Source: Desulfuromonas sp. | GTDB lineage: Bacteria > Desulfobacterota > Desulfuromonadia > Desulfuromonadales > Geopsychrobacteraceae | Reading direction: 5' to 3' | Length of the DNA stretch: 63,518 nucleotides | NCBI GenBank assembly: GCA_002868865.1 | Contig: PKUC01000037.1 | Coordinates: 1 to 63,518, forward strand | Shown: piece after piece, positions 33,901-54,937 of the stretch | How the letters are laid out: each line of letters opens with the position of its first letter | Numbering within the stretch: position 1 is the stretch's first letter | Notes under the pieces: generated by a model | What the model saw: the letters and a program-made list of their open reading frames with translations, nothing else | Told to the model about the DNA's origin: nothing | Databases searched by the model: none | Position numbers and translations under genes: made by a program

Positions 33901-34220
33901 CCATCAGATTTTTTACGTGCTCGGCGCTGGCTCCAGTGGCAGCGGTAGCGCCCTTCTTGCGTTTCGAAGGTCACCTCAGAAAAACAGTCCCCGGTCTGGC
34001 GGGACATAATTTCATTGCCGCTTTTCGTGACCCTGGCAAGCCTGGGAGTCCGCCCGTACAGAGCCAGACAGATGGCATCAAGGATTGTGCTTTTCCCAGC
34101 ACCGGTCGGCCCGGTGATGGCGAAGATGCCATCGGCCGCATAGTCCGGATGCGCCAGATCGACATGCCATTCCCCCGCCAGTGAGTTCAGATTTTTAAAC
34201 CGGACCTGAAGTATCTTCAT
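30957..34220 (-). CDS. sbcC: SbcC-type SMC-like exonuclease subunit
   Basis: ATPase arm of the SbcCD (Mre11-Rad50-like) complex, which opens blocked DNA ends and hairpins. The 1087-residue protein has an N-terminal P-loop GPTGAGKST (about residues 36-44) and long coiled coils. A zinc hook CPLC lies at mid-length (about 535). At the C-terminus come the signature LSGGESFVVSLSLALG and Walker B LFLDEGFGTLD (about 1000-1040). The ATG at 34220 was chosen because earlier in-frame codons fall inside sbcD. The start overlaps no other gene and lies 10 bp after the sbcD stop. Whether the host has another SbcCD outside this window is unknown. Confidence 0.93.
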   Translation of the reverse strand: MKILQVRFKNLNSLAGEWHVDLAHPDYAADGIFAITGPTGAGKSTILDAICLALYGRTPRLARVTKSGNEIMSRQTGDCFSEVTFETQEGRYRCHWSQRRARKKSDGELQAPKHEIANADTGEIFEASIRGVADRIESATGMDFDRFTRSMLLAQGGFAAFLQAAPDGRAPILEQITGTEIYSQISIRVHERQRDERDQLKQLLAETAGITILEPEQEQEKQQALEARQKDESLMAAQSTVIEKAVAWLTTIDGLKKEIGGLAEEGNKLKGDMDAFKPDRDTLERALSAAALDGAYATLSALRQQQTDDQAALATDRAALPDRESSAHDQAEALTAAERTTQQAKDALKTAAPLIQQVRSLDQTRTELAKAVEEGAEDCAKEAAKIDTDKQARQTAQEQRTTAETALAGVEQYLKINAKDEWLIGGLAGIEEQFDNLLSKQGDITQKEAELKMADAAASGAVKKLEDATRQCAFKQQELKSAAENLRQEKNTLSALLEGKLLREYRIEKETLLREMAYRTKIAELEDHRAKLEDGTPCPLCGAVEHPYAQGNIPALDEIEQKIETLTELIDKAEALEATINKLEQAETAARNNLNDSEKLEVEAANNKRAAEKTCAELKQTLTKLGADFVDLKLSVSKKLKPLGISDLPESGIESVLETLRLRLTSWQEQVKQKTDIEKQRSEIDSELKRLNAVIDTQSSALAAKQKQLTQRQKDLAAVEGQRKQLYGDKQPDTEEARLSEAIAAAEVAEKKARELNNELQRQLTTARTQIESLTTRIERREPELLKAQNDFLTALVPAGFADEPAFLEARLTQEQRNVLSVRAKELDDRHTDLSARQNDRQARLRTEEARKVTDKSLEELEPKLKENEAALNGMRDDIAALNHEIRENEAAKERIKEKQAAIDAQKKECRRWDNLHDLIGSADGKKFRNFAQGLTFEIMVGYANRQLQKMTDRYLLTRDTAQPLELNVVDNYQAGEIRSTKNLSGGESFVVSLSLALGLSHMASKNVRVDSLFLDEGFGTLDEEALDTALETLAGLQQDGKLIGVISHVNALKERIGTQIQVTPLPGGKSRISGPGCYAGAVEGGA

Positions 34221-34230
34221 GGTCGTCCCC

Positions 34231-37872: not shown

Positions 37873-39123
37873 CACTGCTGTCCCACAGTTTGATCAATAA
37901 ATAGAAGGCTCGGAACCCGTTTGTGTTATAATGATTTCGCCAAAAAACACAATAACGACAAGGAGTTCCAAGCCATGGCACATTGTAGCACCGTTCTTTC
38001 ACAAATAGTACGAATTTTCCCGAAACATGAATTTCAATCTCTGGCGAACACGTATCACGCCGGGCAGAAATTCCGCTCGTTTTCCCGCTGGATGCAGTTC
38101 GTTGCTCTGATGACCGCCCAGTTGACGGGTCGTGACAGCCTGCGGGATATCGTTGAGAACATGTCCGCTCAAGCTGGCAAGCTCTATCATCTCGGAATTA
38201 AGCCGTTTGGACGGTCAACTTTAGCCCGAACCAACGAGACGCAACCGCATCAGATGTACGAAGCCTTGTTTCATCGGTTGCTGGTTCGCTGTCAAGGGCT
38301 GGCACCGAAGAAGCGTTTCAAGTTCAAGGAAAAAGTCTACCTGCTTGACGCTTCGATGATTGATCTCACCTTGTCGCTCTTCCCTTGGGCCAAGTACCGC
38401 AAAAGCAAGGGCGCAGCGAAACTCCATATCGGCCTGGATGCCGATGGCTACCTGCCTGCATTTGTCGATTTAACCGAAGGCAAGGAGCATGAAATCAACA
38501 TGGCCAGAGAGTTGGTGTTGCCCAAGGGCTCATACGTTGTTTTCGACCGTGGTTACACCGACTACACCTGGTATCAAGATCTCTGCGAAGAGGAAATCCG
38601 CTTTGTGACTCGACTTAAGCGCAATGCCGTGACGATTCCTGGCCCAAAGCGCAGAGGGCGTAAAAGCCCTGGTGTGCTTCTGGACCAAGAGGTCCAACTC
38701 AAAGGTGTCGCCGGAAAGTACCGCAAGGTTGTGTATCTCGATGCGGAGACCGATATCACCTACGAGTTTCTGACCAATGCGCTGGATATCCCCGCGACCA
38801 CAGTCGCCGAATTGTACAAAGAACGCTGGCAGATCGAACTGTTCTTCAAATGGATCAAGCAAAACCTGCGCGTGAAAAGCTTTCTGGGGACTTCACGCAA
38901 CGCCGTGATGACGCAACTCTGGGTCGCACTGTGTGCCTACCTGGTGCTAGCGTTTCTGAAGTTTCAGTCGAAACTTGGACACTCCATGCAGCAGATGTTG
39001 CGGTTATTGCAGCTAAATTTATTTGAACGGCGTGATTTCATGGAGCTGTTTGCGCCACCTAAGCCAAAATTATCGTTATGTGACAAGCAGTTGTCGCTCA
39101 TTTGAAACTATGGGACAGCAGTG
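37873..39123 (+). mobile_element. IS4-family insertion sequence, 1251 bp, intact
   Basis: Terminal inverted repeats CACTGCTGTCCCACAGTTT (left) and its complement with one mismatch (right, AAACTATGGGACAGCAGTG). They enclose a single full transposase gene and are flanked by a 9-bp duplication ACTTAAATT. Intact ends and duplication point to a fairly recent insertion. It sits between the DrmC-like gene and the methyltransferase-HNH gene and breaks no recognised reading frame. Confidence 0.93.
37975..39105 (+). CDS. IS4-family DDE transposase
   Basis: A 376-residue transposase that cuts and joins the ends of the element. An N-terminal DNA-binding region is followed by the catalytic core: LLDASMIDL (first Asp, about 124), VVFDRGYTDY (second Asp, about 190) and the YREK signature in YKERWQIELFFKWIK (about 280-294, with the catalytic Glu). 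AAGGAG lies 9 bp before the ATG at 37975. The frame is uninterrupted, so the enzyme is probably active. Confidence 0.93.
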   Translation: MAHCSTVLSQIVRIFPKHEFQSLANTYHAGQKFRSFSRWMQFVALMTAQLTGRDSLRDIVENMSAQAGKLYHLGIKPFGRSTLARTNETQPHQMYEALFHRLLVRCQGLAPKKRFKFKEKVYLLDASMIDLTLSLFPWAKYRKSKGAAKLHIGLDADGYLPAFVDLTEGKEHEINMARELVLPKGSYVVFDRGYTDYTWYQDLCEEEIRFVTRLKRNAVTIPGPKRRGRKSPGVLLDQEVQLKGVAGKYRKVVYLDAETDITYEFLTNALDIPATTVAELYKERWQIELFFKWIKQNLRVKSFLGTSRNAVMTQLWVALCAYLVLAFLKFQSKLGHSMQQMLRLLQLNLFERRDFMELFAPPKPKLSLCDKQLSLI

Positions 39124-39280: not shown

Positions 39281-40120
39281 TTAATCTGGCAAGCTGAGAC
39301 CATCCAAATGTGAAGCCAGGGAGTCGGTCCATTCAGCGAGTTTTTTCACCAGCACGCCCTCAAAAACAATTCCGATTTCCACACTTAAGTTCATTCCGTT
39401 GCCGGTGAGGTTGGCGCTGCCCAGATAGGCTTTTTTTCGGTCAACGATGATCGTTTTTGCGTGAATCATGCTGGGGTGTTTGTGCACATTTGTGTGGTTC
39501 AGTGTTTTTACGGTTACGGTCATGCCATTTGCTTTCAGCAAACGACAGAAATCCATCAGAGCTTCGAAGTCTTTGTTTTTCAGGATGCTATTGGTCAAGA
39601 TATCCACATTAACGCCTTGCAGTTTCAGCAGACTGAGGCGACTTATGATCGGTTGCAGGCCATGTTCACTCCAATAGGGGTTGATGATCTGGATATGGGA
39701 TCTCGCTTTGGAGATGATTTCTGCAATGCTGTCCAGCACCGATCCGTCATGAATTCCGGTCTTTTTGATTGTGTCCCACATTTCTTCACGCAGGTGAGCC
39801 GGAAGGCTGCAAACCAGCTGCGGGGAGACAACCTGCTCCAGCACATTGTGGACTTCCGGAACATGGAGAGATCGGTAGGCACGCCAACCGGCATCGAGCG
39901 TGTTGAGGTTCGCTTCGGTTTTCTGCAGAAGTCCTGCACAGACTCTCCAGACACTTTTATCAATCCCATCCGGGGATGAACCCGCCGGCAGGCCGGCCAT
40001 TTTGCGGTTCAGAAAATTGGTCGTTCCGACTGCTATCGCCTCTGCCTTTTGTCGGGGTAAGGGCGACATGATTTCTGCGAGCGCTGCGATAAGGCTCTCA
40101 GATGTAAGATGTGTCCCCAT
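39281..40120 (-). CDS. DrmC-like phospholipase D protein (DISARM-like)
   Basis: A 279-residue PLD-family protein with one perfect HKD motif, HAKTIIVD followed by GSANLTGNG (about residues 222-245). The N-terminal 120 residues are helical. Single-HKD proteins of this size next to DrmA and DrmB are the DrmC component of DISARM, where their contribution is variable. The ATG at 40120 lies within the DrmB-like gene (23-bp overlap) with AAGGA just upstream, so translation is coupled. It is last in the operon; an insertion sequence follows 158 bp further on. Confidence 0.78.
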   Translation of the reverse strand: MGTHLTSESLIAALAEIMSPLPRQKAEAIAVGTTNFLNRKMAGLPAGSSPDGIDKSVWRVCAGLLQKTEANLNTLDAGWRAYRSLHVPEVHNVLEQVVSPQLVCSLPAHLREEMWDTIKKTGIHDGSVLDSIAEIISKARSHIQIINPYWSEHGLQPIISRLSLLKLQGVNVDILTNSILKNKDFEALMDFCRLLKANGMTVTVKTLNHTNVHKHPSMIHAKTIIVDRKKAYLGSANLTGNGMNLSVEIGIVFEGVLVKKLAEWTDSLASHLDGLSLPD

Positions 40121-42155
40121 GCCAGAATCCTTTTTGTATCAACTGAGAATTCGCGTCTTCCCCGGTTTCCCCTCCATACAGATAGGCGCGTGAAACTCCT
40201 CGGTTGAAAGTTTCACAACCGATAACTCTTTGCACGCAGCCATTGCAGGAACAGCCGCTTTCTGAGCAAACCGGATCAAAAACGCACTGAAATGCATAAT
40301 TGCTGGCATCATTAAACCACGGGAGCAGGTAGTGTTTGAACAGGGTCAGCAAGCCGCCTGCGGTATAGTTCTGAACGGAGGCAACATAGAGCAGCATTGA
40401 CAGGTCCTGGGGGAAAAGATATTCACCCAGACTCTTTTCGTCATAGCCGGTATGGCGCTTTGCTACCGACAATAGACAATGACTGACGGTATGCATGAGA
40501 TGAAACGGTGCGGATTCGCGAAGTGGCCGATCCGCCATTTCTCGAATTGCCACGGACGGGGAGAAGGTCAGGGCCGGGCATTCTTTTAACAGGTGTGCGT
40601 GTGAAGCGGTTTTGTCTTTAAGAATTTCTTTGTCTGGCAGACTTACGCCAAACTCTTCAGAACACCACTTCAAGACCTTGCGCGGATCAAAGCGAATGTG
40701 CAGAGCCTCAGTTTTTGCTGACATGGCATAAGCAATTGCTTTGCCTGACATGCTCTGGTCGAGATTTTCCTCAAAAGGCTGCAGAACCAGAGGGACCTCA
40801 TCGGTTGATTCGGTATAGGGAGAGCGTTTTTCTCGGGTATATCCAAAGGCTGCAAGAACAACATTGAGATCGGAGATATGCAGGATATCGTCAATCCCGT
40901 AGCTCTTTTTCAATTCGCTCCATTGCTGACTGATCGATTCTCTGACCTGTGTGTCCGTTTCATCTTCAAGCCGATCGGTAATCGAGTACTCGTTGAATGC
41001 TTTGCGCAAAAATACCGCCTCCTGGGCCCGGCGATCTGTCGCAATTTCACCGATAAAGCTTTCTTCGCTGATATGGTTCCGAACGGTACTGAATACCCCT
41101 TGAGCGTTTGCCAGCTGTTCTTCCAGATCTTCAATGTCTCCACGAACACTGTTGAGAATGTCTGCAAACATCGGATCATCGTGCATATTCTCGTACTTTT
41201 GCAAAGCTGCCTGTTTGGTTTCGATCTGACACTGCAGCTCCTTGACCTGGTTTTCGTCCTGCCCACCATCGTGCAGTAACTTCCGAATGCTTTTTTTCAA
41301 AACGTTTGGATCATGGAGGCCCAGTAGTCCAGAAACAATTCCCTCTGCGAAATCCATCCCGACACCAGTCGGCGTTGTGTCCGGTAGAAAATAAGAACTA
41401 ATCTCCGTCAGCAGTTCGCCATCTTTTTCGTTTAGACTGATATATTGCGCCGTTTGTGGATAGAACGCATGACCACTGGTAATCGGAGTACCTCGCTGTG
41501 CAATCCCTTTCCCCCCGGGGAATCGGTTCTGACAGGCTCTACAATTCAGTGACAGGGCGTTGGTAATCTTTTCATCCGTATCCAGGTTGTGAAAAGAGGA
41601 GGTAATAAATGAATTTCCGCGATCCCTGAATGCTGCGTTGGCAACGGCGAAGACCTGTCCCGGGATGTTGATATGGTCCATCGATCCACACCGATGGACG
41701 GAGAGGTAGCGCAGCTGAACCATATATCCACTGCAGGTCGGGCGCCTGCATTTAACCCTGTGGGGAGCTCCGTGGGTCAGGCGCTTGCGCATCCTGTTGA
41801 GAATTGCCTCTTCTGACTGTCTTGAATAAAAATCGATCGTTTCACACACGGAGCACTTCAAGACCAGCGGAAAGGGAGAAACAAATACATCTCCGGGACA
41901 CTGAAGTTGCAGGGAGTTGTCATTCAGTGCATCCAGAAGCGCTGAGCTTACTTCCGCTCCAGTCATGTTCTGCCAAGCGAATACATAGCCTCTCACAACG
42001 TTCAGAAGCTGAGTGCGATCAATATGTTCACGCTCGGCACTGTTATCCCTGACACCAATGATTTTGCCGAAACTTCCGTTTCGTAAACTGACGACGCCAC
42101 CAGGCAGATAGGTACCACGGAAAACACGACTTTTTGCAATACTTTCGTTTTTCAA
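40098..42155 (-). CDS. DrmB-like DUF1998 protein (DISARM-like)
   Basis: A 685-residue protein. The C-terminal third shows the DUF1998 pattern: HLMHTVSHCLLS (about 545), then the cluster CSESGCSCNGCVQ (about 638-650), probably a metal site; earlier Cys pairs (CSVCE about 88, CRRPTC about 116) may bind zinc as well. DrmB pairs with the DrmA helicase in DISARM. The TTG start at 42155 is supported by AGGAGG five bases before it, overlapping the end of drmA. An internal coiled-coil region lies around residues 300-350. Confidence 0.8.
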   Translation of the reverse strand: MKNESIAKSRVFRGTYLPGGVVSLRNGSFGKIIGVRDNSAEREHIDRTQLLNVVRGYVFAWQNMTGAEVSSALLDALNDNSLQLQCPGDVFVSPFPLVLKCSVCETIDFYSRQSEEAILNRMRKRLTHGAPHRVKCRRPTCSGYMVQLRYLSVHRCGSMDHINIPGQVFAVANAAFRDRGNSFITSSFHNLDTDEKITNALSLNCRACQNRFPGGKGIAQRGTPITSGHAFYPQTAQYISLNEKDGELLTEISSYFLPDTTPTGVGMDFAEGIVSGLLGLHDPNVLKKSIRKLLHDGGQDENQVKELQCQIETKQAALQKYENMHDDPMFADILNSVRGDIEDLEEQLANAQGVFSTVRNHISEESFIGEIATDRRAQEAVFLRKAFNEYSITDRLEDETDTQVRESISQQWSELKKSYGIDDILHISDLNVVLAAFGYTREKRSPYTESTDEVPLVLQPFEENLDQSMSGKAIAYAMSAKTEALHIRFDPRKVLKWCSEEFGVSLPDKEILKDKTASHAHLLKECPALTFSPSVAIREMADRPLRESAPFHLMHTVSHCLLSVAKRHTGYDEKSLGEYLFPQDLSMLLYVASVQNYTAGGLLTLFKHYLLPWFNDASNYAFQCVFDPVCSESGCSCNGCVQRVIGCETFNRGVSRAYLYGGETGEDANSQLIQKGFWHGDTSYI

Positions 42156-42157
42156 GG

Positions 42158-45100
42158 CTACCTCCTGAATGCGCTGAAAATTTCTTCGTCGGTTGGCCGA
42201 GCTGGCAGAACCGATACCTGTCGTTCAATATCTCTGAAAGATCGGAATGGAGGATGCCGATAGATCTTTTTCAAAGCCTCGCTCAACTGCATATCTAGTT
42301 GTGTGCCACTCCAAGTTTCTAGACGGTTCAGTCCTCGTTGAACTTCTGTTTTCAGGTTTTCTGTGAATTCTTTGACGACCCTTGGGTCGAACCATTCGGC
42401 ACCCTGCCTTCTGCTGACATACAGGGCGGCTAAGGCCGCTCTTTCAAGCTCTCGGATAGCAACACCCCCCTCGTTCAAGACTTTGTGAACCTCCGCCATG
42501 TTCCCTCGAGTGCCGTCGAACCATGGCTGACAAACCGCCCAATTTAAGACGATTGCCGACATGATGCCGGGCAGCGTTCTTTCCAGTACGTTCGGGGCAA
42601 AACGGTTAATCGGAACGGATTCGACCATTTTTTCCATAAACATGTGGTAGTCACTGAAATTCAGGAAAACATTATGCTCATACAGGTTGTAGTAGGAGAG
42701 CATTGTTAGCACGATCCCCGGATGAACACGGCCTGCTCGTGCAGAGGCCTGAATGTATTCCGCAGTTGAAGTCGGACAACCTGCCAGAATCATGAAATTC
42801 AACCGCTCGATATCGACCCCGTGAGAAATAACGCTGGTCGCGATCAACTGGCGTAGCGGGTCACCGGGAGTTTTTGTTTCCACATGCTCAATGGCGTCCT
42901 GAATTTCGTCCAGACTGCTTTCTCCGTCCAGACGAGCGGTGTAACGATCAACCCCTCTGCTGCCAGCCTCCTCAGCCAAATATTCTTCGATTTCTGAGAT
43001 ATTCCGTTTCTTGTTGACGTACATCAGGTTCGTATTGAGGTTGTCTTCAAGATAGTTGAGAGCATCCACTGCTTTAAGTGCTGGGATGTTGAGTTTCTGT
43101 GCGGTACCAGTCAAGTCAGCGGCCAAAGCGGCTCTGAGTTCGTCAACCAGATCCAGAAAGCGGGAACTGACATCGCTGACTGTTCGCATCGGATTGCGGT
43201 TCTGGGTAATCGGCAGCAGGCTCGTAAAATAGCGGCGGACACTGTCTTTCCTTCTGGAATAAAATGATTCTCCTTCGTTAATACCCGGAGCCGGATAGCG
43301 GCGGGCGGCCTTTTGGTACAGATGGTGAATATGGTGCTGGTAGTCTTTGATAGTTGCCGTTGCGGCCAATATTTTAGGCGGGTGTCCGCCATGCAGCACC
43401 TGCAGGGTCTGCAGCAGCGTTTCATAGTGGCCGTTAAAGTTTCCCAGCAACTCTCTGAGCAGGTGCAGCTCATCCTGAATGGTGAACTGAAACCCGGGAT
43501 CGAGCATGGGGTTGAGGATGACTGTTTTTACGACAGAGGTTCGGGTGTTGTTTCCACACCGGACAGAAGTCGGTTGCCCAGCGTTGTCCGTGCCGAACCG
43601 AAAATAGTCACACTTTGTACCGGTGATAAACCCATGCGTAGGGCAATAATGTTTTGCCGAGCCAAAAAACTTACTGAACCGGATATTGTGAGCAATTACG
43701 GCCAATCGATCTACCGTGCCGACCATAATGGTTGGCAGATAGCGGTAACATTCCTCATCGGAGACATAAATTCCAATCTCTCCCCGAATGCCTTCTCCAT
43801 GCACCCCTTCGGACGCATGCGTATTTGACCAACACTGCTCATTTTTACAAACATGCTTTACGCGGACATTCGTCAAATCACGGATGACTTCGATGCTGTG
43901 TTTCTCATCGCAATACGGACAATCATTGATAAACCTGAGGCTTTTTAACCGATCACTTGAAATGGTCGGCAAAAAGGTGCTGGCTTGATCGTCATAAGGA
44001 CTGCTGATATGGGAAGGGGTTCCGGTACCGGTAAAATATCCGATGGTAAAAGGATGTCCGCCAAGGGCTTTTTCCTGCCGAAGAATATTGGCCTGCGCAA
44101 CGACATAGGAAAGGCGCTGAAATTGCTGAACGGACAGCATCCTGAGCGGGAAGCGCAACCATGCGGTTGTTCCGTATTCTCGACCTTTGAGGCGTCCATA
44201 CAGCATTCCCATGCAGATCAGACCGAGATAGGCTTCCGTTTTCCCGCCGCCAGTGGAGAACAACAAAATGTCTGCGGTGTCCCAACTGGGAGTTTCAGTC
44301 TGCACACCGTCATAGCGCTCATAAATCGCTTCGATCTGAGTAAGAATGAAGCCCAACTGAAACAGGCGCCAGCCTTTGAACGGCTTGCCCTGCCGCTCGA
44401 TCCCCGCTTTCATGGCGGCATTCATCCAGCGGAAACAATCACAAAGCTCCGCATGACTGGACAGTAACGTACAACCACGTTGAACGTTTTCAATTTCGTT
44501 CTGGAATGCTTCGACTTCCTTTTCCGCAATGGACGCTTCCTCTAGGTGCCCGTCTTTTTTCATCTGGCCAATTCTGCCCAGCCATGTCTGCCTGTAGCGC
44601 TTAAGAGCTTCTATGAGCTCTTCCAGAACCGGAAGCGGGTTATCTGCAAGCGCCTCAAAGGTCGGCTTAACACTCATGCCGACATCTTCAGGGGTTGGCG
44701 TTTCAAAGGTCGGCTGCTGAACAACGGGCAGGCAGTTGGTGATAAAGTTCCCCTGCTCAGTTTTTTCGACTGCGCAATTGATCCCATATCCTTCCAATCC
44801 ATCTCCTTCATAGAGGCGGTAGTCTTCCGGCTTCAGTTTGTGTGGCAGTAGATGGTGATTTCCAGCGGTAAGCTCGGTTTCCAGAACACAATCGAGCAGA
44901 TAGGGGCGCTCAAGTCCGTAAGTCTGGGCGACTGCGCTCTCGGTACGATTGGTCAGAGAAATTTCCAGCAGCAGTCCACCTTTTAATTTCGTCAAGGACG
45001 GTGGGGCAGGTCGCAGCCGGCCTTTGACTTCCACCTTGTAGTCCAGAGGGCTGGTGGCGCCATTTTCAAAAATTTCATTGATGACAATGGCGTTGAGGTC

Positions 45101-45697
45101 ATCCTGTGTTCTCATTGATTCCGAGTAGTGAAAGTCGATCTTCGCTTTCTGATTACGTGGGTAGAGCTGGCAGGATTTAAAAATTCTCGGATCTTGAGCC
45201 AGTTGTGCATCCAAGGCTGCCAGCTGGTTTTTTTCTATGGCATCGCTGCTGACCCACTTTAAAAGGTCGGCAGGAACGTCAAAGGTCAGTTCTATGTCTT
45301 CGAAGGGAACTGAAAAACGCTTATAGGATGGAACTATTCTCTGCGTTGCGCGGGGAACTCCTTTATCGTAGGCTAGCTCTCTTAACATGTGGTCGATATC
45401 CGGGATGTAACGATGACTGACATCAAACCGCCCTTTAAGAGAACAGGTCACTTTGCCGCTGCAGTCCGGTGTTACAAGCAGAACCTTGCCGATGTAGTTT
45501 GGGGGTTGTGTCCCCCCAAAATCCGGGTTCGGCTGATTGGCAATTGTTCCCAAAATATTCTGAATGGTCGGAGCGGTGGTGTTGAGCTGGAGTCCGGATG
45601 GTGGCAGGACTGGTTGATCTTTCCCGGTCAGCCGTTGTTTGAACAGAGCGAGAAATTCTTCGGTCAGACTGTTTTTTTCAAGGTCAGAAAGCCCCAT
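42158..45697 (-). CDS. DrmA-like superfamily 2 helicase (DISARM-like)
   Basis: An 1179-residue helicase. Motif I is STGGGKTEAYLG (about 478), motif II the variant box DELHLLRELLGN (about 740), motif III ATATIKDYQ (about 775). The second lobe has IATSVISHGVDIERLN (about 950) and motif VI QASARAGR (about 985). The STGGGKTEAY and DELHLL forms are those of DrmA, the translocase of DISARM. About 470 residues precede the helicase core. It starts 8 bp after the stop of the DrmE-like gene and is directly followed by the DrmB-like gene, giving a conserved DrmA-DrmB-DrmC order. Confidence 0.88.
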   Translation of the reverse strand: MGLSDLEKNSLTEEFLALFKQRLTGKDQPVLPPSGLQLNTTAPTIQNILGTIANQPNPDFGGTQPPNYIGKVLLVTPDCSGKVTCSLKGRFDVSHRYIPDIDHMLRELAYDKGVPRATQRIVPSYKRFSVPFEDIELTFDVPADLLKWVSSDAIEKNQLAALDAQLAQDPRIFKSCQLYPRNQKAKIDFHYSESMRTQDDLNAIVINEIFENGATSPLDYKVEVKGRLRPAPPSLTKLKGGLLLEISLTNRTESAVAQTYGLERPYLLDCVLETELTAGNHHLLPHKLKPEDYRLYEGDGLEGYGINCAVEKTEQGNFITNCLPVVQQPTFETPTPEDVGMSVKPTFEALADNPLPVLEELIEALKRYRQTWLGRIGQMKKDGHLEEASIAEKEVEAFQNEIENVQRGCTLLSSHAELCDCFRWMNAAMKAGIERQGKPFKGWRLFQLGFILTQIEAIYERYDGVQTETPSWDTADILLFSTGGGKTEAYLGLICMGMLYGRLKGREYGTTAWLRFPLRMLSVQQFQRLSYVVAQANILRQEKALGGHPFTIGYFTGTGTPSHISSPYDDQASTFLPTISSDRLKSLRFINDCPYCDEKHSIEVIRDLTNVRVKHVCKNEQCWSNTHASEGVHGEGIRGEIGIYVSDEECYRYLPTIMVGTVDRLAVIAHNIRFSKFFGSAKHYCPTHGFITGTKCDYFRFGTDNAGQPTSVRCGNNTRTSVVKTVILNPMLDPGFQFTIQDELHLLRELLGNFNGHYETLLQTLQVLHGGHPPKILAATATIKDYQHHIHHLYQKAARRYPAPGINEGESFYSRRKDSVRRYFTSLLPITQNRNPMRTVSDVSSRFLDLVDELRAALAADLTGTAQKLNIPALKAVDALNYLEDNLNTNLMYVNKKRNISEIEEYLAEEAGSRGVDRYTARLDGESSLDEIQDAIEHVETKTPGDPLRQLIATSVISHGVDIERLNFMILAGCPTSTAEYIQASARAGRVHPGIVLTMLSYYNLYEHNVFLNFSDYHMFMEKMVESVPINRFAPNVLERTLPGIMSAIVLNWAVCQPWFDGTRGNMAEVHKVLNEGGVAIRELERAALAALYVSRRQGAEWFDPRVVKEFTENLKTEVQRGLNRLETWSGTQLDMQLSEALKKIYRHPPFRSFRDIERQVSVLPARPTDEEIFSAFRR

Positions 45698-45705
45698 CGT
45701 TTCTC

Positions 45706-48522
45706 CTATGATTTTCTGGTGAACAGGTGTTTCCCTGCATGGTGAATGACAATTTTGGATTCATCGGCGTCCCAGGTGAAGTGAACACGCAAGGTAGTTG
45801 CAGGATCATGGGTTGTACCGATACAGATATGCGGACCGATATCTATTTTTTCTCCTTTGTACCTCACGTCATAGTCGCTGGACTTTCCTTGCGTGACTTG
45901 TGACATGGCGAATTTTGCTTCCATGCCTACCCGTTTAAATTCATTCTTCAGGTCAAACCGGTTAATTCCCCCGGCATAATGCTCCCACAGGGGGCCGGCA
46001 ATAGACTGAAAGCAAAGCAGAGCTTTATCGAGGTTCCGGTAGGGAGAGTCATCCATCGATTTTTTTGCCCGAGTGGTCAGGATAATTCTATCCTGATACT
46101 TTTCTTCAATTACTGGAACAAGATCGGCGAACTTTTTCGGTTGTGCTCCCTTGATTACTTCGGCTGGCACTTTGACACTGTTGACGATTTCCAACTGGAG
46201 AATTTCATCCAACTGCTCAGTGCTAACTCTTGTGCTGCCGATCGTAATGCGGGTCGCCCCTGCAGCACGATTGACCAGAGCTTTTTTCAAGGTTTTACCG
46301 ATGATCCTGTGTTCGTCTCCGATCTTCCGAACCGCCCGATGAATCCTGCGGTAATGCTTGGCGTACAGTTCATTATTTACCGCCAGTGCCAGATGTTTGA
46401 TCGCTTCATCGTTGTCCGGGCCAATCACTTTTTTATTCCACCAGTTTCTTGCCGTCTGAGGACTGACGGAAGTGCCCTGCTTTGCCAGAGCGGCAAGCAG
46501 GTCTTTGGGTGACCGATATTTTTCTTTTGCTGCATCAATCAGGGATTGCCAGTATCTGGCCCAGCGCATCAGCTCTTCGGTCTGAGGACTGGAATCAAAG
46601 GCTTCAAAGAGGCGGAAAAGAATCTCTTCATGAGCATCGTTGCTTTTAAACAGGAGAATCTGGTCGCCTGGCACCAGATCGGTAACTTTTTTCGGCTCTA
46701 CTTCGGTATCGACAATCGTGTGAACTGTCCAAGACAGATTCCAGGGGATGCCTTCCGTTGAACTTTCCAGAAAAATATAAGCACAGTTCTCTTCACACAG
46801 GCCATCACTCCACCCGCTATCTAAAGTTTCGGGATCTTCTTCTGTGCTGAGAAGTTCATCAAGCCACTTCATCGAATCGAAGGATTTCTGTTCGATCGTT
46901 ATTTCTTTTGGAATTACGTAACAGCCTTTGCAGTCATCGAATACCTGACGCTTTGCCCATGCTTCAGGGTCGGTTGCCTGGAGGTCTTTCAAATGGCCTT
47001 CTTTCGGCCAGGCCATTTTTAACAAAGATGTTTTTACTCCCCCTTCACGCGGGCTGGCAGCGGAATACTTTCGGATCCAGTCGTTCAGATGATTTTCTAT
47101 CCAGGCAACTTCAAATGGATAGCAAAGCCAGTAAACCTCTTTAGCAACACCGGCCAGCCACCACTGCTCTTTATCCCAGAGGCGGCCCATGATGACACAA
47201 CAACTGTAGGTCTTTTGAGAACTGAGAAGCGGGCGCACGCTGTTTTTCGGCTGAACAGTCAACAGTTTGTTGTCTACCGGAGCAACGTTGAGACTATTGA
47301 TAAAGTCGACCAGCGCATCTTCTTCTGCCTTGTTGCTGACCAGGAAGATTGTTGATTTATTGTCCTTTGCCGCCAGGCGAACCATTTTTTCAACGGCCTG
47401 AGCTTTTCCGGTGAACCCTTTTTCGATTAGGTCATAGAGGTTCTGTAGATCGGTATGGACTTTTTTCCGGGTCGCATCAACCTCACCATACTTCAGTTCG
47501 GTTTCTTCGAGAATTTCAAGCTCTCTGGAGATAGGTCGCACACCAAAAGGGCCTCCGCGAATCTGTCGATGCAGGCTGGCCTCCCGGAACGAAAGAGGCA
47601 TTGCCAAAGAGGCAAACGCCTGCTGCACCTTGGCCGCTTTTCCGTAGGTCAACTGCTTTTTCTGCGCAGAATCGGCTGACACCTGATTGCGAAGATTCTG
47701 AATATCCAAACTGCAGTCGGTCAGCAGGCTGGAAATTGTTTTGTCGGGGATTTCGATCACGCGGTAAACAGATTTTTCTTCTGCCGGTGGGGAGGACTGG
47801 TTTCGCGTGGCCCATAAATACTGGTCGGCAATCCGATGTGTCCACTGGTGCACAGGGGTTCGCTGCAGGTCGGTATCCGCCTGTCGATCCCCAAGGGCTG
47901 AAAACAGCAGAACTGGAACATTCGGGAAATAGATCGACAGGTTATCCCACAGGTCTTTGAGATTTTCCCGCAGACCTGACTGAGTTGCGTCAATCACAAA
48001 AAGAAACGGTCTTGTTTTCTCCAGCAGCAGGTCGAGGGTGTCAAAGTGATTCTGCGTACAGGAAACCAGAGGGGTGCGAGCGATTCGTTCGTTTTCGCTG
48101 TGCCCCTTTCTTTTTTGCGGCGTTTTTCTGGTGATCCGGCAGGGATTAAGCCCGGCGATATCATCCAGTGCCCCTTTGACCTGTGTTGTTCTGCCGAACC
48201 AGACCAAATCATTGTTGTCCCAGAGATTGGTCGACTGAAAATAGGACCCCAGAATGCATCCGCTTAACGCATCCATGCGGATGCGATGCAGATACATCAG
48301 CAGTTTTACGAACAGCGATCGGTCAGGACACGGCAATGAGACGGCAAGCGACTTTCCATCTTTTGCCAGGCGACCACACAAGCCGAGCAGTAGAGCCTCG
48401 TTGTCCCTGATTTCAGAAAGGCCCATTTTCTCCAGCTCTGTGGCCGACAGAGAAAGAAAGGCGCTTCCCGGAAATGCAATCAGGCGATCATCGGCGATTT
48501 TTACCCATTCTGGATCAGGCAT
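45706..48522 (-). CDS. DrmE-like protein of unknown activity (DISARM-like operon)
   Basis: A 938-residue protein with helicase-like traces but no intact Walker A: FLFVIDATQSG and VLLFSALGD (about 172-205), STIFLVSNKAEEDALV (about 395). A C-terminal helical region carries SPQTARNWWNKKVIGPDND (about 685-703) followed by HRAVRKIGDEHRIIGKTL. This order (degenerate helicase, HTH-like W-x-x-x-x-IGP, then a charged helix) recalls DrmE of class 2 DISARM, and the gene lies beside drmA as expected; the match was made from memory and is tentative. Its ATG overlaps the stop of the giant ATPase gene by 8 bp. Confidence 0.6.
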   Translation of the reverse strand: MPDPEWVKIADDRLIAFPGSAFLSLSATELEKMGLSEIRDNEALLLGLCGRLAKDGKSLAVSLPCPDRSLFVKLLMYLHRIRMDALSGCILGSYFQSTNLWDNNDLVWFGRTTQVKGALDDIAGLNPCRITRKTPQKRKGHSENERIARTPLVSCTQNHFDTLDLLLEKTRPFLFVIDATQSGLRENLKDLWDNLSIYFPNVPVLLFSALGDRQADTDLQRTPVHQWTHRIADQYLWATRNQSSPPAEEKSVYRVIEIPDKTISSLLTDCSLDIQNLRNQVSADSAQKKQLTYGKAAKVQQAFASLAMPLSFREASLHRQIRGGPFGVRPISRELEILEETELKYGEVDATRKKVHTDLQNLYDLIEKGFTGKAQAVEKMVRLAAKDNKSTIFLVSNKAEEDALVDFINSLNVAPVDNKLLTVQPKNSVRPLLSSQKTYSCCVIMGRLWDKEQWWLAGVAKEVYWLCYPFEVAWIENHLNDWIRKYSAASPREGGVKTSLLKMAWPKEGHLKDLQATDPEAWAKRQVFDDCKGCYVIPKEITIEQKSFDSMKWLDELLSTEEDPETLDSGWSDGLCEENCAYIFLESSTEGIPWNLSWTVHTIVDTEVEPKKVTDLVPGDQILLFKSNDAHEEILFRLFEAFDSSPQTEELMRWARYWQSLIDAAKEKYRSPKDLLAALAKQGTSVSPQTARNWWNKKVIGPDNDEAIKHLALAVNNELYAKHYRRIHRAVRKIGDEHRIIGKTLKKALVNRAAGATRITIGSTRVSTEQLDEILQLEIVNSVKVPAEVIKGAQPKKFADLVPVIEEKYQDRIILTTRAKKSMDDSPYRNLDKALLCFQSIAGPLWEHYAGGINRFDLKNEFKRVGMEAKFAMSQVTQGKSSDYDVRYKGEKIDIGPHICIGTTHDPATTLRVHFTWDADESKIVIHHAGKHLFTRKS

Positions 48523-51500
48523 GGACCTTTTCCAAGTTGGCCTTTACAGCGGGCTGAACCTGATACAGTGGCAGGTCTGACTGACGTTTCCTGGGCATCA
48601 TTTCAATGATGCTCAATCGGGTGAGCCATTCCAGTGCCTGAGCTACATCGTCTTCAGTCAGGTCGGGCAGACCGTCCATTTCGATCAGGGCCAACTTCAT
48701 GTCCTCTTCATTGAACCCTTCCCCATTCAGCTCTTTCATCAAGGTCAACAACAGTGGCACACCCCAAGGCACGTCGTTAATACCTGTGAAATCAAGGAAC
48801 GCTTGAGCATTGTTGATGGTCAGGTCTGTAATTTTTTTGAACTTTGCCCCGAATTTACGGATCGTTGTAACTTCCGGGCTGCTTTTTTTCAGTTCACTCA
48901 GATAGTCCAGAGGCGCATGCCAGCCATGGGTAAACTCTTTAAGAGTGTCCAGTGGCATCTGTGTGTTGGTAAAGCCAATTTTCTCAAGCAGCGCGGACAG
49001 CGCATTATCTTTCCAGCGATTCAGGCTGATGTGAGACAGGGTCTGTTCCTGCCGGGCGATCTCCTGTGCCCCGGATAGCCAGTTCCAGAGAGCTCTAGGG
49101 GAGGCAGAAAAAACCACTTTGCAGTTTTTATAACTGTTGCGGAAACTGTCTTTGGCCTGATGTGCAATATCTAGTGCCGCGTACATTTCCTCATCCGACC
49201 ATTTCCCCGTCAGTTTGACATAAATGATCTGAGGATTTTTTTCGGACAGTTTGATCTGCTTCTGCAGGCGAGCACCGAATCCCTTAAGTCCGGAAAAGCT
49301 GGTGTCGGAGAAGGTGACCAATTTGTATGTCTGATCATTGGAGGTCCAGTCGAGGGAATAGTCCTCGGTGTAGGGCAAGGTTTTTTCCAAGGCATCCAGA
49401 CCTAAGGCTTTGGAACCGGAAATCAGACTCACGGTATACGCCTGTACCTTTTTAATACTGTTGGGCTTAGCCTTTTCGTCATTGGTCAACGTGCCGAGCA
49501 GTTGCTTTTCGTCTCGATAGGTCAGAGCTGAAGGAACGTGCAGTTTGTCGATGTATGCATGCAGATCAAGCGGATCATCGTTCTGCAGACTGTCCTGGGC
49601 GCCAAGCAGTTTCATCTCAATAGTCGATTGCGTTCCCAGCAGAGAAAGAACGTTTGAGTTGCGTAATGCAAAAGTGTTGCCTGCCGTTTTGCGCAAAACA
49701 CCCAGTCCGACCAGCTCCTCCAGAATTGCTTCGATCTGCATGTTGGTCTTGTTGGCCAGTTCAGGAAGCCAGGGCTTCGCCGAATCGCGAACCTGTGCGG
49801 CAGAAAAAGGTTCCACCCCTCTGCGCTCCAGAGCCAGACTGTAGATAATGATGGCGTAGCGCTTGTCAAGATTCATCGTCATTTCAAAGCGCTGACGAAT
49901 CAGTCTTTTTACTTCTTCGCTTTCTGACACCCGGGCAACATCCGAGTCGGTAATCACCTGTTCGGCTATATCTCCGGAAAAGTTGTACGCCAAGTGTTTG
50001 GTCAACTCTTTACAGAAGATCTGAATCAAACTGGGATGCCGGTTGGTGTAAGAGAGAATCCGCCGGGCTACCAGCGGGTTCTCAAAGCGATAACCGAAGG
50101 TCTGCAGCGGTTCTTTGATCAATTTGGTTGCATCGGCAACAGACATGATAGAGATATTCAGCGACCCGCCTAGCTGGTTCAGCGGATAGTTCGGGGAGTC
50201 TTCAAAGCGCTTGACGTTGTGCAGGCCGCCAATGATGAACTTGAACTGACCCTCGGTTTCCGTAGAACTAACCAGCGCTCGAATGCCGCGCATGATGGCA
50301 AAATCATCTGCATGGTCAAGACTCAGCAGTTTGTCGCTCTCATCAAACAACACCATGACGCGCAGATCTTTTTTCTTGATCAGGCAGTGGGTGATATCTG
50401 CACGCATGGCCTCTGTAGATTTATCTGATTTCCCTTGAATCAGCCCGGCACCGCAGAACTTTTCGTGGATCATTGACCATACTCGACGCTCTCTTTGTTC
50501 CGCAGTACTCTCTGCCAGACGGTCTTTGTCGACTTTGAGTTCAAACGCATACTTCTTGTTCAGTGGGTCATGGAAATGTTCTTTGACCTGGAACAGAATG
50601 GTCGATTTACCAAGCTGACGGCCGCCAAAGGCAATCGCTGCTCCACGATTCATGCCCAGCAATTGCTGAATTTCGTTGGCCCGTCCATAACGCATTTCCG
50701 GTTCCGGCGGCTCCTGCTTGTCTCCGACATATGTGTTGTAGTACGTCATCGGGACTGACAGATGCAGGAAGTTGCGGATGGTATCGGCATTACTGGTTGT
50801 GGTTGGCAGAGACCCCAGATACAGCAGGGCAACTGGATCGATCAGAAAGACCGTGCGGTGCGTATCCTTGCAATAAGCGGCAAATTGATTCCGCTGCGTC
50901 CGATTCAGAGGCGCGGTAGAGATCATGACAAATCGTTGCGTTACCGCCGGAATCTGTTCAATCGCTTTTTCAAAGCGATCCTGATCCCACATTTTGTGGG
51001 CAATCAAAACCTCCAGTTCAGCCCCCTGATTTTTACCAAAATCACTGAAAGGAGCTCCGGCATTACACGGGTCAACATTCAGCTGCAGGTATGTGAGGCC
51101 TTCCACAATTTTGAAGCGGCTTTTCCTCACGAGGTCGGCGCTGTGTTTCTCCCTCGCAATCAAGCCAAGTGGTTGCAGAAGAACCACTATATTTTCGTAA
51201 GTTGTCTTATCCAGCGTTGATTTGGGGCGACTGCTGCGTAAAGAAGCAATAGCTCTGACTGCTGTTCGGATGCTGGTTCTGTTGTCCGGCTCTGTAAGCC
51301 CGACAGGTCCTTCTGAATCATAAGCAGTCATGATCTCCGAAGGATCGTTGGTTTGAGAGAGAAAACGGTAAAGCGTTTCTTCGTTTTTTAAGAATTCGGG
51401 AAAAATACTGTTGGAATTGATGGAGTCGAGACGGATTTTATTGCCGGCGTTTGATGCATTTTCAAGCGTTTCCAGCATTTCTTCTACAACTGGAATGTCC

Positions 51501-54500
51501 TTGTTCTGGAATGCGTCTTCAATCAACCGGCGCCATTCATCGGTCACTACTTCTGGGCCGACGTTTGCGAGGGCCGTATTCAGCAGCGAATCATACTGAT
51601 TCTTCAGGTCGCGCAGTGGAGCCGTAAAAAGAGCATCGACCTCGCGTTCCATCTCTTTTAATGGCTCGCTGATTTTCCTCAGGTCCGTGTACATCGAGCG
51701 ACTTTTGATTTCTTCCTCAATGTACTCTAGCTCTGAAACAATCTGACTGTGCCGTTCGGGCTGAATCAGGCCGGAGAAGCTGGCGGTATTAGCTCCCAGA
51801 GCAACATGGTCTTTGCAGCGGTTCAGTTCCAGAAGCTCCTCTCCAACAGCTTTTTGGAGAGCCGCCGCCTCTGCGGACATGTCTTTATTTTCATCCGACA
51901 GAGTTTCCAGCAGCAGATGGGCAATATGGTAGGCCTCGCACTTAAAGGCACCCTGATACATCTGGACAACATCAAACCCGGATTCTACCTGGTTCAGAAC
52001 CCATTTGATCAGCTGATTCGGGGATGCGTCTGGCTTGAACCCACTCATCAGAGGTTTTGCCGCGTTGAGCCAGAGCTCAAGCCTGGCGTCCGGCCAGAGC
52101 AGGGATTCTCGGCCATCGATGACAGCAAGCAACCGTCGTAGCGAATTCAACATCAGAGTGTTCGCCAGGCAGGTTGAAGAATCGTTGTTCTGATCAAGAT
52201 TCTTGTCAGCGCTGGTGATAAATTTTTCCAGTCGGGTGATCAACTGGTGGGACATGTTTTTGATCTCTTCCCGAAGATCTTTTCTTTGTGGCACACCGGC
52301 CATCCAGAGCTGGCCGATTTCTCTCAGTTCGTCAACGGTCCTTCGGAAAGACTCGAAAGCAAAGGTTTCGATTTTTGCCGCGTCCAGTTCGTTGGCCATT
52401 TTTTGAAGCAGATTTCTGGATTTGTCGGAATTGCCATATTCGCTGACAAACTGCTGAACTTCTTTTATGGCGGATTTGTCGTCTGAATCAATGATTTTGA
52501 CGACTCTGGTAAAGGCACCATCCTTTAAGCATTTCGACAGTGATTGGCGAAGCGGAGCCCAACCTTTGGTGGTCTGTGTGATTTTGTCCTGCCAGTCTTT
52601 CAGACGAACTTTTGCACTTAGCCCGGTGTTTTCGGTGCCCCCTTCAATCTTATTGATCTTCTCAAGCGAGAAGGTAGCACCCTTGTTCCAGAGGGGGGTC
52701 AGATCTGTAATCAATTCTTGCAAGAGCGGGTCAAGGTAAAGCTTGATTTGAGACAGGATCTGCGGTGCCAGCGTGTTGATGCCGCCCCAAAGTGCCGGTT
52801 GCAGGCAAGCCGAAAAAAGCAACGGAGGAACCGCACGGGAAGTGACTCTGTTTTCCAGCCAGCCTTCAATTTTTCTCGGATCGAAAGTGTTCAGAATTCG
52901 TTGCGAGTGTTCAAAGGTCCGATCGGTTGACGCCCATGTGTTCCGCCCATAGAAAACGGCTTCCAGCAATTTCTCCGGCAAGAAGCCTGGTTCCGGGTTT
53001 TCCATTTCTTCGGCAACGCACAGAACCTGATGAGCAAGATTGATAAAGCCTTTTTCCGCACACTGAAGCGATAACTGGTTCGCATCAGCAGGCGCAATCT
53101 GATTGTATTTCTTCAAAGAAACTTCGATCCGCGTTTTCAGTGGGGTTTTACTGTCAATCCGGAGCGCCGGGTCCTCTTCCTGAGGGAGTTCTTTTACTGC
53201 AGGCGCCTCGGCTTGTACGGGCTTTTTTTCGACCGGCTCAGGTTCCTGCGGTTCGGGAATTTCAGCCTCGATGTCCGGTTGGTCTTCTTTTGCCTCAATG
53301 TTATTTTGCGGTTCGGTAATTCCTTCCGGCCCTTCAGGAACTTCCGGGTGGACTTCGACAGGAGCATCTTCTTCCGGAGAAGCTTCAGTTTCCTCTTGTT
53401 CTTCTGGAGGTTCTTCAACCAGGGCTTGAGAGGGTTCAGTCAACGCTTCCAGTACAGCCTGGAGACCTTCCATCGCCTGCTTTTTTATCGCCGGATAACT
53501 GTCATGCGGGACTTTTTCTTCTTGCCCGACCTGATCAAAAGAGGAACCTTCCGGCAGGATGGCCTCATGCAGCGGAATTTCCGTTTCGCTCAAGTTCTGT
53601 TTGCAGGAAGCGATTTCACCTTCAAGCTTGGTGATTTCTTCTTTTGCTTTTATCCGCGAAACAAAATCAGCGGGCAAAGCAGTTTGAAGCTGGTTCAAGT
53701 TCTCTTCTGTCTGAGTGATGGTGGTCAGGTATTCGCGGCGACTGGCTGCAATCGCTGAAACATTGTCCTTAACCTGTTTCAGGATATGGACTGTGTCGTC
53801 AGACGGAGAAATGTTTTCGGGGTATTCTGCGAAGTGTCGACACCACTCGTTGTGCACAAACTCTCGGAACCCCGCATCCTGCATGCCACTGATCTCTGCT
53901 TGTTCGGCCAGAGTGTCCAGGTAGTTGTGAATCAGACGGATAGCCTCTTCGAAGCGCTCCGTAGAGGTTTCGGTTTCAGCAAGCCGGCCGATGTGAATAG
54001 TCAGCTCCGCGAGATGCTTCAGGTGGTCGACATTCAACCCGGAAGGCACCAATTCGCCAACCTGACCTTTCAGCAGCTCCAGACATTTTTTTATGTCCTC
54101 CGGAAAGTCATCCTCCGGCTCGACAGCTTTTGCAGCGGTTTTGGCAGAAATTTCTTTACTTTGCGGGAGTTGTATCGGTGGTTTCGGGGATTCAATCACC
54201 TCTATTTTTACGTTTTTTTTGGCTGGTGCCTTCTTTATCGGGGTCAGTTCCTTCTGAATGTAGGTCAGCTCATCAAAAGCTGGAGGATAAATTTCAATGG
54301 CTTTTTTGAAGAATTCCGGCCCCAGAACCGTTGCAAATGCCATAATCATCGGTCCGGCACAAACATCATCTTTGTCCATCCAGAATTTGTTGGAGAGTCT
54401 GTTGCTGGCTTTATCCCAAAGATTGAGTACCGGTACAATGTCGTCTTCTGTGAGATTGTATTTTTCAATGATGGTTTTGTCGACCAAGGCATAGTCTTCC

Positions 54501-54937
54501 GGTAGTTCTTCGGGTTTTTCTGCATCCAGAAAAAAGTCTTTCAGCTTTCTTTCTTTTCTGTCGTCTTCTGTCAGTTCATAGGAGAAGTCGTTGAAAAGCT
54601 GTTTAAAGCAGCCATATTCAATGCTGATGCTCGGCTTGTGCGCAAGGGTTTTTAAGGTCTTTTTTTCTATATGCTTGATGAAAAACCAGAAAATCCCCCT
54701 GCGGAATTCCTGATTCATGTAGATATCAAAAAGTTTGGTTTTTTTGTTTAATGACATAAAGGATGGGGCTGTTTTTCTGAAAAACTTTTCGCACCCCTTG
54801 CGGGTGTGTCTTGGAAATGGGCTTAAATAATCCCAGAGGACAGAATCTGAAGGCTTCCAGTTTTTGTCCAGAATCATTTGGTCGGCAAGGCCAGATGTAG
54901 TCAATGTGAATTCGGATTCAGCAATACAACTATTCAT
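48515..54937 (-). CDS. Giant P-loop ATPase (2140 aa) heading the DISARM-like operon
   Basis: Family not recognised. An N-terminal region (about 1-250) of unknown fold leads to coiled-coil helices and then a long Pro/Glu-rich acidic linker (about 502-590). A large helical middle (about 600-1330) follows. Next comes an AAA/STAND-like ATPase with FGGRQLGKSTIL (Walker A, about 1430) and VMVLFDESDKLL (Walker B, about 1525), then winged-helix-like segments. The C-terminal ~450 residues are unassigned. Protein size and layout recall signal-sensing NTPases. It is the first gene of the operon and overlaps the DrmE-like gene by 8 bp, which argues that all five proteins work together. No methyltransferase motif is present. 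Confidence 0.85.
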   Translation of the reverse strand: MNSCIAESEFTLTTSGLADQMILDKNWKPSDSVLWDYLSPFPRHTRKGCEKFFRKTAPSFMSLNKKTKLFDIYMNQEFRRGIFWFFIKHIEKKTLKTLAHKPSISIEYGCFKQLFNDFSYELTEDDRKERKLKDFFLDAEKPEELPEDYALVDKTIIEKYNLTEDDIVPVLNLWDKASNRLSNKFWMDKDDVCAGPMIMAFATVLGPEFFKKAIEIYPPAFDELTYIQKELTPIKKAPAKKNVKIEVIESPKPPIQLPQSKEISAKTAAKAVEPEDDFPEDIKKCLELLKGQVGELVPSGLNVDHLKHLAELTIHIGRLAETETSTERFEEAIRLIHNYLDTLAEQAEISGMQDAGFREFVHNEWCRHFAEYPENISPSDDTVHILKQVKDNVSAIAASRREYLTTITQTEENLNQLQTALPADFVSRIKAKEEITKLEGEIASCKQNLSETEIPLHEAILPEGSSFDQVGQEEKVPHDSYPAIKKQAMEGLQAVLEALTEPSQALVEEPPEEQEETEASPEEDAPVEVHPEVPEGPEGITEPQNNIEAKEDQPDIEAEIPEPQEPEPVEKKPVQAEAPAVKELPQEEDPALRIDSKTPLKTRIEVSLKKYNQIAPADANQLSLQCAEKGFINLAHQVLCVAEEMENPEPGFLPEKLLEAVFYGRNTWASTDRTFEHSQRILNTFDPRKIEGWLENRVTSRAVPPLLFSACLQPALWGGINTLAPQILSQIKLYLDPLLQELITDLTPLWNKGATFSLEKINKIEGGTENTGLSAKVRLKDWQDKITQTTKGWAPLRQSLSKCLKDGAFTRVVKIIDSDDKSAIKEVQQFVSEYGNSDKSRNLLQKMANELDAAKIETFAFESFRRTVDELREIGQLWMAGVPQRKDLREEIKNMSHQLITRLEKFITSADKNLDQNNDSSTCLANTLMLNSLRRLLAVIDGRESLLWPDARLELWLNAAKPLMSGFKPDASPNQLIKWVLNQVESGFDVVQMYQGAFKCEAYHIAHLLLETLSDENKDMSAEAAALQKAVGEELLELNRCKDHVALGANTASFSGLIQPERHSQIVSELEYIEEEIKSRSMYTDLRKISEPLKEMEREVDALFTAPLRDLKNQYDSLLNTALANVGPEVVTDEWRRLIEDAFQNKDIPVVEEMLETLENASNAGNKIRLDSINSNSIFPEFLKNEETLYRFLSQTNDPSEIMTAYDSEGPVGLTEPDNRTSIRTAVRAIASLRSSRPKSTLDKTTYENIVVLLQPLGLIAREKHSADLVRKSRFKIVEGLTYLQLNVDPCNAGAPFSDFGKNQGAELEVLIAHKMWDQDRFEKAIEQIPAVTQRFVMISTAPLNRTQRNQFAAYCKDTHRTVFLIDPVALLYLGSLPTTTSNADTIRNFLHLSVPMTYYNTYVGDKQEPPEPEMRYGRANEIQQLLGMNRGAAIAFGGRQLGKSTILFQVKEHFHDPLNKKYAFELKVDKDRLAESTAEQRERRVWSMIHEKFCGAGLIQGKSDKSTEAMRADITHCLIKKKDLRVMVLFDESDKLLSLDHADDFAIMRGIRALVSSTETEGQFKFIIGGLHNVKRFEDSPNYPLNQLGGSLNISIMSVADATKLIKEPLQTFGYRFENPLVARRILSYTNRHPSLIQIFCKELTKHLAYNFSGDIAEQVITDSDVARVSESEEVKRLIRQRFEMTMNLDKRYAIIIYSLALERRGVEPFSAAQVRDSAKPWLPELANKTNMQIEAILEELVGLGVLRKTAGNTFALRNSNVLSLLGTQSTIEMKLLGAQDSLQNDDPLDLHAYIDKLHVPSALTYRDEKQLLGTLTNDEKAKPNSIKKVQAYTVSLISGSKALGLDALEKTLPYTEDYSLDWTSNDQTYKLVTFSDTSFSGLKGFGARLQKQIKLSEKNPQIIYVKLTGKWSDEEMYAALDIAHQAKDSFRNSYKNCKVVFSASPRALWNWLSGAQEIARQEQTLSHISLNRWKDNALSALLEKIGFTNTQMPLDTLKEFTHGWHAPLDYLSELKKSSPEVTTIRKFGAKFKKITDLTINNAQAFLDFTGINDVPWGVPLLLTLMKELNGEGFNEEDMKLALIEMDGLPDLTEDDVAQALEWLTRLSIIEMMPRKRQSDLPLYQVQPAVKANLEKVHA

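Follow-up and report, generated by a model that had tools for sequence, protein, structure and literature searches.

Among the systems already described, the one closest to the case considered here is class 2 DISARM, in which DrmE, DrmA, DrmB and DrmC are accompanied by DrmMII, a cytosine methyltransferase. DrmC is dispensable in DISARM. In the canonical DrmAB complex the trigger loop exerts autoinhibition, and the complex can act on phage without methylation sites (PMC9142583). In the DISARM of Serratia, the trigger loop of DrmA admits DNA with a 5' overhang, and the ATPase activity of canonical DrmAB is merely lowered by 5-methylcytosine (PMC9142583). Besides DISARM classes 1 and 2, the literature covers ARMADA, BRIGADE, TALON and systems related to BREX (PMC12458937, PMC9142583, PMC12839542), and some DISARM-like operons contain RmuC-type ShdA proteins (PMC10270631). 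A preprint on YprA mentions "many uncharacterized DISARM-like" classes and does not describe a type headed by a giant ATPase. Such a type is the subject here: an operon at 39281-54937 of contig PKUC01000037.1 of Desulfuromonas sp. (assembly GCA_002868865.1), where the whole stretch analysed, 63,518 nt, is called the window. In the searchable literature, which excludes most subscription papers, no account of a DISARM operon with a giant STAND ATPase turned up.

I propose that this is a defence operon derived from DISARM, in which a giant ATPase of the STAND (NLR) class acts as both infection sensor and switch. I would give this proposal an even chance. That the gene cluster serves as an anti-virus defence, rare but conserved, is probable. 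It comprises five open reading frames, packed exactly as the initial annotation described them, with overlaps of 8 and 23 bp and gaps of 8 and 2 bp:

48515-54937, minus strand: giant STAND-type ATPase, 2140 amino acids, the first gene; an open reading frame conserved in 12 operons, with a predicted STAND/NLR fold
49628-50716, minus strand: STAND ATPase domain of the giant, residues about 1408-1770; VIA-align Z of 19.0 to 2qen and of 17-18 to NLR resistosomes and ORC2
50603-50626, minus strand: Walker A motif of the giant, GGRQLGKS, residue 1438; nearly invariant in 18 giants
50333-50350, minus strand: Walker B motif of the giant, LFDESD, residue 1530; no variation in the D, E and D columns among 18 giants
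45706-48522, minus strand: DrmE-family protein, 938 amino acids; matches to NF038316 and DrmE_C, a predicted SF2-helicase fold that lacks motifs for ATP binding, plus an additional C-terminal domain
45706-46176, minus strand: the extra C-terminal domain of the DrmE-like protein, residues 783-938, with the motif HHAGxHLxT; matches the C-terminus of PADLOC HEC-07
42158-45697, minus strand: DrmA helicase, 1179 amino acids, with motifs GGGKT, QDELH and QASARAGR; profile matches, and a clade of its own (100/100)
40098-42155, minus strand: DrmB-like protein, 685 amino acids, with a TTG start and a C-terminal cysteine motif; profile matches
39281-40120, minus strand: DrmC-like PLD nuclease, 279 amino acids, with HxK(x4)D at residue 220; profile matches, and present in 6 of 12 operons

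Profile searches with PADLOC, NCBIfam and Pfam uphold the DrmC-, DrmB-, DrmA- and DrmE-like identities first given to the four smaller proteins. Scores are 5e-103 (PADLOC) and 1e-107 (NCBIfam, below the equivalog cut-off) for DrmA, whose helicase motifs are intact; 8e-25 (PADLOC) and 4e-19 (NCBIfam DrmB_fam, below cut-off) for DrmB; and 1e-17 (PADLOC) and 5e-16 (NCBIfam DrmC) for DrmC. Since these lie well under the NCBI equivalog cut-offs, the three proteins are divergent members of their families. The DrmE-like protein scores 128 bits against NF038316 (DrmE_fam), where the cut-off is 80, and 3e-18 against Pfam DrmE_C, but only 44 bits against the DISARM_DrmE equivalog, under its cut-off of 250. 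It is because the operon falls under the published DISARM equivalog cut-offs that such loci would be annotated only in part. Alignments of DrmA to the Serratia structure 7s9v fell short of the trigger loop and of the base-contacting V1296, and a motif conserved near the DrmA C-terminus, SFRDI/SLRDV, is a candidate for the regions left unaligned. A profile search gave no RmuC match in the operon's proteins.

The operon thus has a DrmA with intact motifs, a separate DUF1998-type DrmB, a member of the DrmE family and, in the window, DrmC. It lacks the DNA methyltransferase associated with DISARM: neither DrmMI nor DrmMII is found in the scanned island or beside 11 related operons, and for this reason I file it as related to DISARM rather than canonical. 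It resembles class 2 in its DrmE family, in the split between DrmA and DrmB, in the PLD-type DrmC that half of the operons carry and in the order from DrmE to DrmC. It differs from class 2 in having a giant at its head, no methyltransferase, an extra C-terminal domain on DrmE and a DrmA of about 24-33% identity, which the tree places in a clade apart. A second likeness is to DISARM loci headed by an N6-methyltransferase (L027, L028, L072, L073), which share the layout of five slots, with a protein of about 900 amino acids before DrmA and then DrmB and DrmC. In those loci, however, the first slot is filled by the methyltransferase, and here by the giant. ARMADA and Druantia likewise have at their core a YprA-family helicase and a DUF1998-type partner domain. 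In ARMADA the helicase is fused to DUF1998 and accompanied by BrxHII-like and PglX-like genes (PMC12458937), so membership is ruled out by the separate helicase and DUF1998 genes of this operon and by its lack of both a PglX-like methyltransferase and a BrxHII-like helicase.

How firm is the absence of a methyltransferase? In the island, no scanned open reading frame matches a DNA methyltransferase family or motif; a single NPPH in a Toprim protein is incidental. A motif scan found no DNA-methylase candidate at any of the 12 operons headed by a giant, against a methylase, by motif or annotation, in 13 of the 15 other DrmA loci. The contrast gives p = 6e-6 by Fisher's exact test, a value that overstates the evidence because the loci are related. 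The scan is weak for cytosine enzymes and missed two annotated ones (L024, L025), so the absence of a C5-methylase rests on Pfam scans of the flanking open reading frames at the related operons, which found no DNA-methylase family in the 0.2-13 kb covered per side. Within those flanks, the lack of a methylase that was first remarked in the window extends to its homologues. Two features lie just beyond DrmC:

36049-37776, minus strand: S-adenosylmethionine methyltransferase of the Methyltransf_25 type, fused to HNH, 1.5 kb beyond DrmC and past a transposase on the opposite strand
37921-39105, plus strand: DDE transposase (DUF4372), outside the operon, given for context

The fusion of methyltransferase to HNH is unusual, and it matches MADS mad2 in part. 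As the missing methylase it is rejected, having no NPPY-type motif, belonging to the Methyltransf_25 class and not being conserved beside related operons.

If the giant is part of the system, then it should be found with DrmAB elsewhere. Related operons were sought by tblastn of plasmids, by running an alignment of DrmE against some 85,000 species genomes, and by a search of the window's class. The plasmids yielded the whole operon in Cupriavidus oxalaticus (L004). The genome scan yielded ten loci, eight of them with giant, DrmE, DrmA and DrmB in order (four Pseudomonas, two Paraburkholderia, Rubrivivax and Collimonas); unlike the DrmE alignment, a query with a single giant protein gave no matches to the contigs of the species genomes. 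Two further genomes of the window's class bring the total, window included, to 12 complete operons in at least 8 genera, 6 of them with DrmC. The giant and DrmE genes either overlap, by 8 bp in the window's class and by 4 bp elsewhere, or are separated by 2 bp. Two loci, in Burkholderia arboris (L003) and in a metagenome-assembled genome of Methylobacter (L019, where the giant spans two frames), carry the giant and DrmE genes and lack DrmAB. A further locus, L016, is a contig fragment. The four core genes, in fixed order, are thus present in 12 of the 14 loci whose context is readable.

The trees tell the same story. DrmA proteins of the giant operons form a single clade (100/100), separate from seven other DrmA proteins, and the giants of these operons form another (100/99), separate from ten other giants and with L003 and L019 nested within it. 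Given that nesting, the absence of DrmAB in the two looks like loss. The main split is threefold in both trees, into the window's class, Pseudomonas and Burkholderiales. Matching clades so strongly supported argue that the association of giant with DrmA is inherited. The window's DrmA, searched unconditionally in its class, has relatives at 57% identity in two genomes, both of which carry the operon, so that all three genomes with a close DrmA also have giant and DrmE; no other relative (4 in the class and 10 in a sample of the phylum) exceeds 36% identity, and none of these is in a genome among the giant-positive ones. The initial annotation had supposed a distinct DISARM branch, and this survey of gene order and the congruent trees bear it out and show the giant ATPase to be conserved in it. 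Two outcomes would have spoken against that annotation, a DNA methyltransferase regularly encoded next to homologous operons and a giant never met with DrmABC in other genomes, and neither was observed within the flanks covered.

Two side observations belong with these loci. The Cupriavidus drmA (L004 25246-26453) is interrupted by an insertion with an open reading frame on the opposite strand. In Burkholderia arboris (L003 13051-27224), the giant and the DrmE-like protein are followed, in place of DrmAB, by a candidate metallo-beta-lactamase fold and an E2/E1/JAB-type protein.

What might the giant do? No family in Pfam, NCBIfam or PADLOC matches it above cut-off, the match to ATPase_2 being weak, and phage records contain no match to it. 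A PADLOC match to RT_UG9_small (E 0.0085) is taken as noise. A structure prediction of residues 1150-2140 (predicted local distance difference test score, pLDDT, 67) is more informative. Within it, residues of about 1408-1770 match archaeal ATPase_2 proteins (Z 19.0 and 18.7), ORC2 (17.9), and plant NLR resistosomes and CED-4 (16-17.6), and an alignment of 18 giants shows little or no variation at the P-loop and Walker B residues. By its predicted fold, then, the core is of the STAND class of signalling ATPases, and a STAND fold makes a role as sensor or switch plausible. The giant shares its predicted fold and Walker motifs with STAND NTPases, NLRs and archaeal ATPase_2, but differs from them in its length and in an N-terminal half without a family match above cut-off. 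BREX BrxC and the DUF499-type STAND-ORC ATPases offer another parallel, each a large STAND/ORC-class ATPase adjoining a helicase effector (PMC12839542). Those systems, however, retain an adenine methyltransferase, and profile searches (PADLOC, Pfam, NCBIfam) matched the giant to neither DUF499 nor BrxC.

The DrmE-like protein is modelled with a pLDDT of 73, and residues 10-530 of the model match SNF2 and other SF2 helicases with Z of about 14. Neither Walker A nor DExH is present at the expected positions in this protein or in any aligned homologue, which makes a dead helicase probable. A profile-profile comparison shows homology between its DrmE_C domain and the one in class 2 DrmE (E 2e-10). 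No significant homology connects the DrmE-like protein with the HEPN-like partner of other giants, described below, or with the protein of about 900 amino acids in the N6-type DISARM loci. Its extra C-terminal domain, with the motif HHAGxHLxT, is also found in shorter proteins of conjugative plasmids and on viral contigs (L065-L068, L046, L047), and on the viral contigs it is the sole part of the DrmE-like protein that is matched. The domain behaves as if it were a mobile domain of its own.

Relatives of the giant also live outside DISARM, in Streptomyces, Salinibacter, Thiodictyon, Azospirillum, Brasilonema, Euzebya and the window's phylum. In most of those with readable context, the next gene encodes a protein of about 380-420 amino acids, or a larger one holding such a region. 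Most of these partners have an RNxxAH-type motif in their C-terminal region, three have matches to HEPN_Swt1 (E 0.0006-0.03, weak and under the Pfam cut-off), and I regard them as candidate HEPN-like RNases. In Brasilonema the gene directly after the giant encodes a PLD-SNF2 helicase, and in Azospirillum (L007 5473-16919) a pPIWI-RE gene, a giant ATPase and a HEPN-like/AAA_33 fusion stand in a row. Such differing effectors suggest that the giant is a sensor module whose effectors are exchangeable. The two-gene module of giant and HEPN-like protein, present in several phyla (L042 4745-11542; L044 6230-13335; L006 8773-15692; L008 8125-15398), is apparently a candidate defence system not yet described.

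A model that accommodates these observations runs as follows. The variable N-terminal half of the giant, its C-terminal domains or both would bind a cue of infection, and its STAND domain would exchange nucleotide. The DrmE-like protein, as a dead-helicase adaptor, would relay the signal to the DrmA-DrmB complex, a step suggested by the order of the operon, the gene overlaps of 4-8 bp at most loci and the joint inheritance. Activated DrmAB, if it works as in canonical DISARM, would load on phage DNA and block or unwind it, leaving degradation to DrmC or a host nuclease when one is available. Self-protection would combine gating by the sensor with the preference of DrmAB for certain DNA structures, and would require no methylation by an enzyme of the operon.

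Several considerations weigh against this proposal. The structural models are of middling confidence, and that of the giant begins at residue 1150. The flanks searched for methyltransferases are of limited extent. The loci in Burkholderia arboris and Methylobacter do without DrmAB, so the pair of giant and DrmE may have a function of its own. Canonical DrmAB, being autoinhibited and able to act on phage without methylation sites, does not strictly need a further licence (PMC9142583). Finally, there is some small chance that the host methylates in trans.

The main rival view builds on autoinhibition. Perhaps DrmAB tells self by DNA structure alone, loading on 5' overhangs past its autoinhibitory loop, and the giant with DrmE is an added effector or a suicide arm held as a back-up. 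The trigger-loop gating of canonical DrmAB and its response to DNA structure (PMC9142583) fit this view, as does the pairing of other giants with candidate HEPN-like RNases, which are possible suicide modules. It is less easy to see why an accessory should be so tightly spaced with DrmE and DrmAB and have a congruent tree in 12 complete operons, or why searches of the class and the phylum sample never encountered a DrmA of the giant clade without a giant. I consider this view unlikely, though it fares best among the competitors. A more drastic alternative is that giant and DrmE constitute an independent two-gene defence system that happens to adjoin a remnant of DISARM. The two loci without DrmAB can be read in this way, and giants elsewhere do form two-gene modules with an unrelated partner, but those two loci nest inside the giant clade and look like losses, 12 of the 14 readable loci hold the four core genes in order, and DrmA co-diverges with the giant, which together make the idea improbable. 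A last alternative is that the operon works as ordinary DISARM and depends for self-methylation on an unlinked methyltransferase, of the host or an element, that acts in trans. This finds support in the lowered ATPase of canonical DrmAB on 5-methylcytosine (PMC9142583) but is the least probable of all, by a small step, since it asks for an unlinked enzyme in several genera and for mobile copies (the Cupriavidus plasmid, the tRNA-Ala element of the window) when 13 of the 15 other DrmA loci keep theirs nearby.

The initial annotation suggested that the giant may replace modification as a means to license or trigger DrmAB, an idea upheld in part. The missing methylase and the conserved giant agree with it. 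With its predicted STAND fold the giant may plausibly license or trigger DrmAB, but a licence may not need replacing, because DNA structure is enough for canonical DrmAB to discriminate (PMC9142583). Moreover, the two loci without DrmAB and the giants that accompany other effectors make the giant something broader than a replacement for the DISARM methylase.

The operon of the window travels in company. It lies between two perfect repeats, with an integrase and an SbcC/SbcD-like pair among its neighbours:

10966-11020, plus strand: attL, first copy of an exact 55-bp direct repeat, in the 3' end of tRNA-Ala(GGC)
60935-60989, plus strand: attR, the second exact 55-bp copy, by the integrase
59499-60767, minus strand: tyrosine integrase of the carrier element
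30957-35460, minus strand: SbcC/SbcD-like pair, a neighbour here and also beside the operon of L035, of the same class (L035 1-2523)

The perfect 55-bp repeats and the integrase indicate that the operon is carried by an integrative element, about 50 kb long, in tRNA-Ala. The cargo of the element includes DUF927 and Toprim proteins and other nuclease, helicase and SbcCD-like genes. At 13415-30947 there is a second defence-like cluster, with a 1198-amino-acid ResIII/SNF2-type helicase, a 707-amino-acid PLD protein, a 1054-amino-acid UvrD-PDDEXK protein, a WYL regulator and a 696-amino-acid AAA protein. A DUF927 protein is encoded upstream of another giant (L044 16061-18709), just as one is upstream of the window's operon, which suggests that the carrier elements are related.

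A wider idea, which I hold tentatively and somewhat less firmly than the proposal itself, is that the giant STAND ATPase is a portable immune-receptor module of prokaryotes, present in several phyla and able to work with effectors unrelated to one another. These would be HEPN-like RNases in some loci and a PLD-SNF2 helicase in another, with one giant placed beside pPIWI-RE, and for DISARM they would be the DrmAB core. There, gating by the receptor through a dead-helicase DrmE adaptor would supplant the marking of self by methylation. It is debated whether DISARM avoids self through methylation or through DNA structure, and a DrmAB branch without a linked methyltransferase offers a direct test. 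If the giant is indeed the gate, then NLR-like sensing would be linked to an effector that translocates on DNA, and DrmE, whose role in DISARM is unknown, would gain a testable function as a pseudo-helicase adaptor.

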